A stretch of DNA of 64,000 nt from Hyphobacterium sp. CCMP332 (GTDB lineage Bacteria > Pseudomonadota > Alphaproteobacteria > Caulobacterales > Maricaulaceae). The notes beneath the pieces were generated by a model, which saw only the letters and a list, made by a program, of their open reading frames with translations, was not told the DNA's origin and did not search any database. Made by a program: the position numbers and the translations under genes. Numbering within the stretch: the first letter of the stretch is position 1; every line of letters begins with the position of its first letter. Location: assembly GCF_014323565.1 (NCBI RefSeq), contig NZ_CP058669.1, positions 1,949,501 to 2,013,500 on the forward strand, written 5' to 3'. Below, piece after piece: positions 2,407 to 9,168 of the stretch.

Positions 2407-2495
2407 GGCACATCTCCCCATTTGCCGCGCAGCTGTTTAGTCTGGCCGTGAATCGCCGCGCTGTCATTGCGGTTATTGTGCACGAGGATACCCCC
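2407..2495. promoter_or_regulatory. Divergent intergenic region between ligase and thiolase genes
   Basis: These 89 bases separate two divergent genes of the same pathway and must hold both ribosome binding sites (CTCCCC on the left, GAGG at 2484-2487 on the right) and probably both promoters. I see no long inverted repeat that would mark an obvious operator, and no regulator gene lies next to it. Confidence 0.4.
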
Positions 2496-5374: not shown

Positions 5375-6184
5375 TCAATTCCCCTCGAAGACGGGCTTTT
5401 CCTTCGCGATAAAGGCGCGATAGGCGCGGCGGAAATCCTCGGTCTGCATGCAAATCGCCTGTGCCTGGGCTTCCGCCTCGATCGCCTGGTCAATGCCCAT
5501 ATCCCATTCCGCATTCAGCTGGGTCTTGGTGATGCCATTGGCAAAAGTCGGTCCGGCGGCAATCCGCGCCGCCCACTTCCCGGCCTCTTCCATCAACTCA
5601 TCGCCCGCCACCAGCGCATTCCAGAAGCCCCAGCGTTCGCCTTCATCCGCGCTCATCGACCGCCCGAAAAAGAGAAGTTCGCTGGCCCGGCCCTGACCGA
5701 TAATGCGGGGCAGGATGGCGCACGCGCCCATATCACATCCGGCCAGCCCGACCCGGTTGAACAGGAAGGCGGTCTTGGCGTCCGGTGTGGCGATGCGCAG
5801 GTCCGACGCCATGGCGAGGATCGCCCCGGCCCCGACACAGACGCCGTCGACCGCTGCAATGACGGGCTGCGGGCAATGGCGGATCGCCTTGACGAGATCG
5901 CCGGTCATCCGCGTGAATTCAAGGAGTTGCGGCATACCCATTTCGGTCAGCGGCCCGATGATCTCCCGCACATCGCCGCCGGAACAGAAATTCCCGCCTT
6001 CCCCCTTGATAATGACCACCTTCACCTCCGGCGCATAAGCCAGCGCGCGGAAGAAATCGCGCAGCTCGGCATAGCTCTCGAAGGTGAGTGGATTCTTTTT
6101 CTCCGGCCGGTTCAGCGTGACGGTTCCAACGCCGTCCGCAAACGACCACAGGAAATGTTCCGGATTGTGCGTTGCGGGGTTCAT
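5375..6184 (-). CDS. Enoyl-CoA hydratase/isomerase (crotonase) family protein of the abm cluster
   Basis: A 269-residue crotonase-fold enzyme. The oxyanion-hole segments are visible ([14 protein letters not shown] and [16 protein letters not shown]). The first catalytic glutamate of classical hydratases, in a PE-I/L motif, is replaced here: the equivalent stretch reads [15 protein letters not shown]. The second glutamate (ASELLFFG) is kept. The reaction may therefore differ from simple hydration, for example hydrolysis of a cyclic 2-oxo or 6-oxo acyl-CoA. Its start codon overlaps the stop of the monooxygenase/reductase gene (ATGA). Confidence 0.82.
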
Positions 6185-8457
6185 ACCTTCATCTCCTGCA
6201 TTTCGGCGGCGCGTTTGAGATTGCGTGCCAGCTGGACGTGACCGGCAATATACTGGTTGGGCACATCCACCCCGCGATAGCCCAGCTCGGCCGCCGCGCG
6301 CAGCGTCCAGTAGGGATCGGCCAGATGCGGCCGCGCCAGCGCCACCAGATCGGCCCGGCCCGCCGCCAGGATCGAATTGACGTGATCGACCTCATAGATA
6401 TTACCCACTGCCATGGTTGAACAATGCAGCGTATTGCGGATCTGGTCGGAAAACGGCGTCTGGAACATGCGGCCATAAACGGGCTCACCCGCCGGCGTGG
6501 TCTGTCCGGCAGACACATCAATCAGATCGGCACCGGCTGCCGCGAAGGCTTTTGCCACTAGCACCGCATCGTCCGGCGTTATGCCGTCTTCACCGACCCA
6601 GTCCGTCGCCGACAGGCGCACCGCCATCGGCCGGTCCGCAGGCCAGACCGCCCGCATGGCGGTAAAGACCTCCAGCGGATAGCGCAGCCGGTTTTCCAGA
6701 CTGCCGCCATATTCATCGTCGCGCTGATTGGAGACTGGCGTGATGAAAGACGAGAAGAGATATCCGTGCGCACCATGCATCTCGACCATGTCGAATCCGG
6801 CTTCCAGCGCCCGCTTCGTCGCGGTGACGAATTCATCCTTCACCCGATCCATGTCCTCCCGCGTCATTTCGCGCGGGATCTGGTTCTTCTCGGACCAGGG
6901 AATGGGTGACGGACCAATCAGCTCCCAACCACCCGACTCCAGCGGCTCGTTATTGCCTTCCCAGGAGAGTTTCGTTGCCCCCTTGCGGCCGGCATGCCCG
7001 ATCTGGATAGCCATTTTCGCATTATTCGCATGGACATGATCGACGACGCGTTTCCACGCGGCGACATGTTCATCCGTGTAGATGCCGGCGCATCCGGGTG
7101 AAATCCGCGCATCGGCCGCCACATTGGTCATTTCCGTATAGATCAGCCCCGCCCCGCCCATGGCGCGCGATCCGTAATGGACAAAGTGGAAATCATTGAT
7201 CAGCCCGTCATCGCTGGAATACATGCACATCGGCGAAACCACGACGCGGTTTTTAAGCTCCATCCCGCGCAGGGCATAGGGCACGAACATGGGGGGGCGA
7301 ACAGAGACGCCCTGCTGGCTTGCAAACCAGCCCTCCATCCGCGCCATCCATTTCGCATCCCGCTCACGCAGATTTTCATGGCTGATGCGTTGCGAGCGTG
7401 TGAGTAGCGAATAGGCAAATTGCTTGGGCTCGAAATCCAGATAGCGGTCGAGCGTTTCAAACCATTCGGTGGAATTTCGCGCCGCAGACTGGAGCTTCAA
7501 GACCTCCACCGTCCGGACCGCCTGATATTCCTTCAGTCCCTCTTCGATGGGCTGGCTCTTCGAGGTCAGAACCTCGGCCAGCATGATCGCGTCTTCAAAG
7601 GCCAGCTTGGTTCCGGACCCGATGGAAAAGTGCGCCGTATGGGCCGCATCGCCCAGCAGGATGACATTCCTGTGTGTCCAGTTTTCGCATAATACGCGCC
7701 GGAAATTCAGCCAGGCCGACCCCCGTAAATGCCGGGCATTGCTCATCAGCTCATGGCCGTCGAGCTGGTCCGCAAACAGCGCCTCACAAGCCCGGCAGGT
7801 CTCGTCCTGGTCCATCTGGTCAAAACCCAAACCGCGCCAGGTCTCCTCCGAACACTCCACGATGAAGGTCGAGAGATCATCGTCGAACCGGTAGGCGTGC
7901 GCCCACACCCAGCCATGCGCCGTCTCCTTGAAGGCAAAGGTGAAGGCATCGAAAACCTTGTGCGTGCCCAGCCAGACGAATTTGTTCGCCCGCACATCGA
8001 TGTCCGGCTTGAAAACGTCCGCATACTGCTCGCGAATGCGCGAATTGATCCCGTCGGCGGCGATCACCAGATCGGCATCGGGCAGATTGGCCGGATCGGT
8101 TTCGGTCTCGAAATGCAGATTGACGCCCAGCTCGGCCGCGCGGTCCTGCAGGATGGCCAGCAGGCGCTTGCGGCCGATACCGCAAAAGCCGTGGCCACCG
8201 GAACTTTCAACCGTATTCTTGAAATGGACCTCGATATCATCCCAGTGCGCCAGCGAATCGGCAATCAATTGCGCGCTCTGCGGGTCGGTCGCGGCGAGAT
8301 TGGCCATCGTCTGATCAGAGAAGACCACGCCCCAGCCGAATGTATCACCCGGCTTGTTACGTTCGTAGATGTCAATTTCGCAGAACGGGTCCCGCAATTT
8401 CATCGCGATCGCGAAATACAGGCCCGCCGGGCCGCCACCGATGCATGCGATTTTCAT
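6181..8457 (-). CDS. abmA: 2-aminobenzoyl-CoA monooxygenase/reductase-like fusion (FAD hydroxylase + old yellow enzyme)
   Basis: A 758-residue two-domain flavoenzyme. Residues 1 to about 370 form a salicylate-hydroxylase-type FAD monooxygenase: [10 protein letters not shown] Rossmann motif at the N-terminus, [11 protein letters not shown], and [22 protein letters not shown]. From about residue 390 the protein is an old-yellow-enzyme TIM barrel with [19 protein letters not shown] and [15 protein letters not shown]. This fusion and size match the anthraniloyl-CoA enzyme of Azoarcus evansii, which hydroxylates and partly reduces the ring with O2 and NAD(P)H. The ATG at 8457 is preferred: GGGGAGG is 9 bases upstream, inside a stem. 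It heads the operon abmA-crotonase-dehydrogenase-RidA. Salicylyl-CoA hydroxylase is the main alternative but normally lacks the second domain. Confidence 0.88.
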
Positions 8458-8463
8458 ATGAAA

Positions 8464-8522
8464 AGGCCTCCCCGAACTTGTCCGCGTCAGACAATCACAC
8501 AACGCGGAAAATGGGGAGGCCT
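8464..8522 (-). promoter_or_regulatory. Leader hairpin that contains the abmA ribosome binding site
   Basis: A perfect 10-bp inverted repeat (AGGCCTCCCC / GGGGAGGCCT, positions 8513-8522 and 8464-8473) encloses a second 6-bp stem (TCCGCG / CGCGGA, 8503-8508 and 8481-8486). On the minus strand the 3' arm holds GGGGAGG, the Shine-Dalgarno of abmA, and is followed at once by TTTT and then the ATG. The structure could end transcripts from the DUF3501 operon, block abmA translation, or both. The pairing is seen directly; the regulatory role is inferred. Confidence 0.6.
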
Positions 8523-8547
8523 GAACTGGTTTTAGCGGTGGAGGAAG

Positions 8548-9168
8548 CTAGACGAGGTCCGCGCCCAGCGTGGCTTTGGTATCGGCCGACAACAAGGTCA
8601 TGTGCGGGTAATTCTCGTGACGAATCCCCAGCATCACGTCGCCGTCGAAGTCCTTGAAAGCGGCGGCCTGATCATCGGTGAAGTCGAAATGGATGAACTG
8701 GACGGACGAGGCTTTACCGTCAGCCGTCGTCCGGTCGACATCTGTTTCCGCGCGGGCCTGGATTTCGTGATCCCCGAATTTGAGGAAAATCGTCTCCTCG
8801 ACGCCGCCCAGCCGCCCCAGCACGCTTTTACGCAATTTTTCATCATCGATCTCGAACATCAATGTCGCCGACAGGTCGCGGCCTTTCGGGATCAGCGGAT
8901 TGTAGGCGGCGAGTTCATCGGGAATCTGGTCCGGTCCGCCTTTTTCAATGAACAGCATTTCGTGGATCTGCAGCCACATGGTCTCGTAGCTCTCGAAATA
9001 GAAGGTCGCATGCGGGCCGATCGGCACACGGCGCGCCTTCTTCAAGGGAACCAGCTCGGCGCGCTTCTGTTTGCGAACCTTTCCGTATTCGGCAAGGTCC
9101 ATCAGGTCTGCGGCCTTCACCTCGGTCTTGTGCCGGGCTTCGGAGAGATTGACGACATTTCCCATCAT
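8548..9168 (-). CDS. DUF3501 family protein
   Basis: A 206-residue soluble protein recognised as DUF3501 by its N-terminal part (ADLMDLAEYGKVRKQ, then PIGPHATFYFESYETMWLQIHEML). No enzymatic activity is established for this family as far as I know. It is commonly encoded next to a rubrerythrin and a two-domain Fe-S protein, as here, which points to a shared role in iron or peroxide handling. Two adjacent ATGs (9168, 9165) follow AAGGA; I chose the first. The Fe-S protein stop lies 10 bases upstream, so the two are co-transcribed. Confidence 0.8.
   Translation of the reverse strand: MMGNVVNLSEARHKTEVKAADLMDLAEYGKVRKQKRAELVPLKKARRVPIGPHATFYFESYETMWLQIHEMLFIEKGGPDQIPDELAAYNPLIPKGRDLSATLMFEIDDEKLRKSVLGRLGGVEETIFLKFGDHEIQARAETDVDRTTADGKASSVQFIHFDFTDDQAAAFKDFDGDVMLGIRHENYPHMTLLSADTKATLGADLV

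Follow-up and report, generated by a model that had tools for sequence, protein, structure and literature searches.

The 90-nt gap between a DUF3501 gene and abmA in Hyphobacterium sp. CCMP332 probably contains the promoter of abmA itself, which would lie in a conserved 48-nt block, and the hairpin that the same sequence forms in RNA would mask the abmA Shine-Dalgarno (SD) sequence only on read-through transcripts. We assign this reading a probability of roughly 60%. According to the proposed mechanism, the gap would consist of an abmA promoter/operator, represented by the block, followed by a short leader that bears the SD sequence, with a predicted transcription start near -25 and a predicted -10 element at about TTGTCT. 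The CCTCCCC of the block is complementary to the SD sequence, and RNA that enters from the upstream rubrerythrin/Fe-S protein/DUF3501 operon would therefore fold into a long hairpin and allow only poor translation of abmA. RNA from abmA's own promoter, in contrast, would start 3' of the 5' arm and, lacking this arm, would be translated, so that the hairpin could silence read-through RNA only. Both the occurrence of read-through and a role of the hairpin in the cell are inferred.

Anatomy of the abmA leader

abmA (6181..8457, minus strand) encodes a 758-aa two-domain flavoenzyme of the 2-aminobenzoyl-CoA monooxygenase/reductase type in the window, the 64,000-nt stretch of DNA that was analysed as a whole. 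The protein matches NCBIfam NF006101 with 1294.8 bits (cut-off 1078) and the Pfam families Oxidored_FMN and FAD_binding_3. The DUF3501 gene (8548..9168, minus strand; PF12007, 199.7 bits) is the last gene of the rubrerythrin/Fe-S protein operon. Its stop codon (8550-8548) is separated from the abmA ATG (8457-8455) by exactly 90 nt (8458-8547). The possibility that the abmA protein extends N-terminally into the leader, where the frame is open here and in two related genomes (G024 and G028), was rejected; a TAA interrupts this upstream in-frame extension in a third relative, G029, and the ATG at 8457 is thus the abmA start. An abmA leader peptide was also rejected, given that the leader has no ATG and contains only a GTG-TGA frame. 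Farther upstream in the window, adjacent palindromes GAGAATAATTCTC and TTTTAGAATGATTCTAAAA (11155-11110) lie between an Irr/Fur-like gene and the rubrerythrin gene, and they probably mediate iron control of the upstream operon.

The preliminary description of this DNA depicted the gap accurately. A perfect 10-bp inverted repeat, whose coordinates were re-checked, is formed by the 5' arm AGGCCTCCCC (8522-8513, minus strand), the anti-SD sequence, and the 3' arm GGGGAGGCCT (8473-8464, minus strand), which includes the SD sequence GGGGAGG of abmA. The 39-nt hairpin loop holds a nested 6-bp stem between CCGCGT (8507-8502) and ACGCGG (8487-8482), both on the minus strand. A TTTT (8464-8461, minus strand) follows the 3' arm and precedes the ATG. 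This U-run consists of only four T, the first of which doubles as the last stem base, and five of the eight nucleotides after the 9-bp stem core are T. The RNA of 8560-8440 folds with -39.9 kcal/mol (z -3.5), and none of 200 shuffled sequences is equally stable. The exact 9-bp core occurs a single time in the 2.69 Mb genome, and a search of the window against Rfam 15 at the gathering score matched no family.

How unusual is such a stem in front of a gene? When the rest of the leader is shuffled with the SD sequence and the tail fixed, a stem of at least 10 bp appears with P = 0.0016 per leader; over ~1,300 leaders, a number extrapolated for the genome, about two such stems are therefore expected per genome. 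In a 464-kb genome sample (20 stretches plus the window, home-made gene calls, 236 intergenic leaders), 2 of the 236 leaders have a stem of at least 10 bp in the SD zone, and the other one is a 13-bp terminator preceding a gene. Among 152 SD sequences sampled from this genome, that of abmA is the least accessible (most occluded). The abmA hairpin is beyond chance, though not hugely; it is unusual, but rarity alone does not establish a function. In L131, a terminator hairpin with a perfect 13-bp stem and TTTTTATTT lies upstream of a minus-strand gene (1459-1951). It ends 17 nt before the start codon and leaves the SD sequence just outside the hairpin, and as a juxtaposition of terminator and start codon it is cleaner than abmA.

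Conservation of the leader among relatives

The gene order rubrerythrin, Fe-S protein, DUF3501 and abmA is kept in G024 (H. indicum, one of the nearest relatives of this genome in the search), G028 and G029, and the contig of a fifth genome, G026, ends inside abmA. A thiolase query gave identities of 73-86%. The more distant genomes examined carry abmA with different neighbours and different leaders, and the abmA leader was found in only four genomes of one genus among the 398 genomes of the order that were searched. A leader match in G437 was rejected as a chance match in coding sequence.

The part of the leader that is conserved in these four genomes is the 48-nt block CTAAAACCAGTTCAGGCCTCCCCATTTTCCGCGTTGTGTGATTGTCTG (8488..8535, minus strand), the putative abmA promoter/operator, which extends from -78 to -31 relative to the abmA ATG. 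Forty-one of its 48 columns are identical in the four genomes, compared with 31% of the abmA four-fold sites (P 5.6e-15). The 5' arm and the hairpin loop fall within the block, and the 3' inner arm and the T-run lie outside it. The 14 columns on its 3' side, which include the nested-stem arm ACGCGG, are identical at only 6/14, the neutral rate. The GGGGAG of the SD sequence is kept in all four genomes, and the nine columns following GGGGAGG are identical at 0/9. No excess synonymous conservation was observed in the end of the DUF3501 gene or the start of abmA. Selection on a stem should be visible in both of its arms; a retained 5' arm and loop beside a free inner 3' arm draw the outline of a promoter/operator, not that of a stem. 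This pattern supports a putative active promoter within the DNA that encodes the 5' arm or the loop, and the 48-nt block would accordingly be abmA's own promoter/operator rather than an RNA switch.

The hairpin itself is retained unevenly. The 5' arm is identical in G024 and G028, where all ten stem pairs are kept, one of them as G-U, and the stem is retained to its end, at which the leader identity stops; the four-fold sites of these two genomes are only 58% identical to those of this genome. G029 has two changes in the 5' arm, its stem is reduced to CTCCC/GGGAG, and the outer pairs are lost without compensation. The SD occlusion of the G024 leader is equalled by 2 of 500 shuffles, versus 221 of 500 for G029, and the block persists in G029, where occlusion is no better than in shuffled leaders. 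In G024 and G028, the T-run is replaced by TTCGGTCC; the tails after the stem read TCGGTCC, TCGGTCC and GTAATCC in G024, G028 and G029, respectively, and thus none of the three relatives has a T-run.

The preliminary description named an absence of covariation in relatives as evidence against its proposal, and at the available depth no covariation stands out. One pair changes on both sides, and 254 of 500 shuffles do as well or better, in a comparison of only four sequences, two of them nearly identical, in which the pair statistics are those of shuffled columns. The pairing register of the nested stem is not kept in the relatives, which use an alternative inner helix. In three pairs of this helix one of the two bases varies, with pairing preserved throughout the four sequences, which slightly favours an RNA structure.

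A partial second copy and promoter signals

A partial copy of the element, CTCCCCATTTGCCGCGCAGCTGTTTAGTCTGGC (2414..2446, plus strand), matches the abmA block consensus at 24 of 33 positions. It is located in an 89-nt intergenic region flanked by the divergent CoA ligase and thiolase genes, which belong to abmA's own cluster and pathway. In a search of the 464 kb with the 33-nt piece (~928,000 positions, both strands), this second site is the best non-self match, and the next best reaches 22/33; none of 233 other leaders exceeds 21/33. The spacing from CTCCCC to T[AT]GTCT is 24 nt at both sites. A degenerate pattern, drawn up after both sites had been seen, finds with at most three mismatches only these two places in this genome, G024 and G028, and nothing in reversed controls. 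The CTCCCC of the second site is also the SD sequence of the CoA ligase gene on the opposite strand. G029 retains the second site only in part, and its two sites are hardly alike. TTGTGTGATTGTCTG was rejected as a genome-wide regulon motif, as it has one copy per genome; an extra match in G026, upstream of a cysteine-synthase-like gene, has one mismatch and corresponds approximately to chance expectation.

The candidate -10 element of abmA is TTGTCT (8489..8494, minus strand). CTAG[GT]CT is present at a comparable position in pathway relatives, namely in the promoter regions of kyn, the route from tryptophan to anthranilate, and in the leaders of abmA in G025 and G027. The kyn regions and these two leaders resemble Caulobacter RpoD promoters, whose consensus is TTGaCgS / GCtANAWC (PMC8144410), in that they contain, ~40-60 nt ahead of the start, elements similar to GCTAGTCT or ACTAGGCT. 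The abmA block differs from the Caulobacter promoters because it has TTGTCT only and no recognisable -35 element, and it would thus need an activator. A sigma-70 consensus scan of the abmA leader found no -35/-10 consensus, and a de novo promoter motif search by expectation maximization (EM) in 236 leaders yielded nothing strand-specific.

The leader had been put forward as the control point of abmA, given that no regulator gene was seen near the cluster. The lack of a MarR gene in the cluster agrees with this proposal, but the conserved object is a promoter-like DNA block with a partial second copy. Since the block is conserved, occupies a promoter-like position and is partly repeated in another promoter region of this pathway, control is more likely to be transcriptional.

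Masking of the SD sequence and its possible regulators

On RNA that starts upstream, the computed cost of opening the abmA SD sequence is 14-19 kcal/mol in three genomes, versus 2.5-6.4 kcal/mol on RNA that starts between -31 and -22. The corresponding values for G029 are 6.5-7.3 and 4.1-4.7 kcal/mol. For RNA that starts upstream, the earlier claim that the hairpin blocks the SD sequence is thus supported by the folds of three genomes, and occlusion is lost in the fourth, G029. In these three genomes, the computed folds reproduce the hallmark of the T4 gene e leader, in which the SD sequence is occluded only on upstream-started RNA. In the gene e (lysozyme) and I-TevI leaders of phage T4, an upstream arm likewise pairs with the SD sequence on long read-through RNA, and the short RNA escapes because its promoter is situated in the DNA that encodes the 5' arm (PMC3014915); for abmA, such a promoter position is our prediction. 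The gene e promoters at this place are late promoters (PMC3014915). The T4 case differs in its phage late sigma factor and temporal switch, in that the structure and starts were shown experimentally, whereas those of abmA are predicted, and in the insulated gene, which is a phage gene in T4 and part of a cellular catabolic operon here. As to whether the masking of read-through RNA was selected rather than a by-product, we lean against selection; the loss of masking in G029 argues that it is incidental or dispensable.

The main competitor, at a little below even odds, is that the stem is a functionless coincidence over a promoter, in which CCTCCC happens to match the SD sequence and AGGCCT extends the match. 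As it is a weak form of the promoter explanation, the two overlap. A 6-nt anti-SD sequence within a conserved block is cheap, stems of this length are expected about twice per genome, and G029 lost the outer pairs without compensation. Such a coincidence is harder to reconcile with the ten pairs kept in G024 and G028 despite their low four-fold identity, and with the rarity of comparable SD occlusion among shuffled G024 leaders. Alternatively, the whole leader might be part of the abmA mRNA, and a ligand, protein, temperature or sRNA might open or close the hairpin to set translation. The fully paired SD sequence in the leaders of this genome, G024 and G028, the stable fold, the unbroken inner helix and the missing MarR regulator all suit this mechanism, but it is unlikely, given that covariation does not exceed that of shuffles, that G029 loses occlusion yet keeps the sequence block, that no Rfam family matches, that 78-90 nt leaves little room for an aptamer beside the stem, and that the leader is confined to one genus.

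The preliminary description also saw in the hairpin a stop to read-through from the iron operon. If the rubrerythrin/DUF3501 operon had its intrinsic terminator here and the 3' arm served as the SD sequence by coincidence, this would account for the GC-rich 10-bp stem and the following TTTTCATA, which is the tail of a convergent-gene terminator in this genome. However, intrinsic terminators are recognised by a short-loop GC-rich stem and a conserved U-run, and the abmA hairpin has neither. Its 39-nt loop with a nested stem contrasts with loops of 3-8 nt in the best terminator-like matches of the genome, obtained with a scan that allowed loops of 3-10 only, and the T-run is missing from all three relatives. 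Termination is accordingly not supported as a conserved function, and we regard a terminator as very improbable.

Which regulator would act on the promoter? Related abm clusters, in Maricaulis and others, contain a MarR gene between the SDR and enoyl-CoA hydratase genes. The abm cluster of Hyphobacterium has no MarR gene, and the genome has no close homologue elsewhere; the nearest MarR protein is 40% identical over ~100 aa and is encoded ~360 kb away beside unrelated genes. In its enzyme and neighbouring genes, the cluster resembles the MarR-containing clusters of Maricaulis and sphingomonads, many of whose leaders have a palindrome such as TATTTTAAGCTTGAAATAAA immediately ahead of abmA. It differs from them in lacking both the MarR and the SDR gene, an SDR gene of this type being located in the kyn cluster at about 951-962 kb, and in the unrelated 48-nt block of its leader. 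Given the missing MarR gene and the conserved block, a different regulator acting on the block is a reasonable expectation. Palindromes such as TATTTTAAGCTTGAAATAAA or TAGTTGACACCTAAACTA directly precede abmA in many sphingomonads, Maricaulis and Burkholderiales (L036-L111), and together with the MarR protein of several examined clusters they are a candidate repressor-operator pair.

The kyn cluster (L177:3619-12945, about 951.6-960.9 kb in this genome), which leads from tryptophan to anthranilate, lies ~1 Mb from abmA and encodes TDO, KynB, KynU, an ECH/HADH-like fusion, an SDR of the MarR-cluster type, a stand-alone Lrp/AsnC ligand domain and a serine dehydratase. In G025 and G027, kynA, kynB and kynU directly precede abmA; the pathway is thus split in Hyphobacterium. 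A conserved TGCCG-N10-CGGCA inverted repeat precedes CTAG[GT]CT upstream of kynA (L177, L178 and L184), is imperfect in this genome, and may represent an operator of the kyn operon.

If the promoter reading is right, the abmA leader also illustrates how a hairpin with the looks of a regulatory RNA may be what a conserved promoter yields when transcribed, and how easily leaders can mislead in this way. A further and more doubtful proposal is that the promoter itself supplies the anti-SD sequence and that a catabolic operon located behind an iron/oxidative-stress operon is thereby insulated at the level of translation, with neither a terminator nor a dedicated regulator. If true, this arrangement would allow a compact, cross-talk-free placement of one operon behind another, a solution known from phage T4 and represented here by a bacterial metabolic gene.
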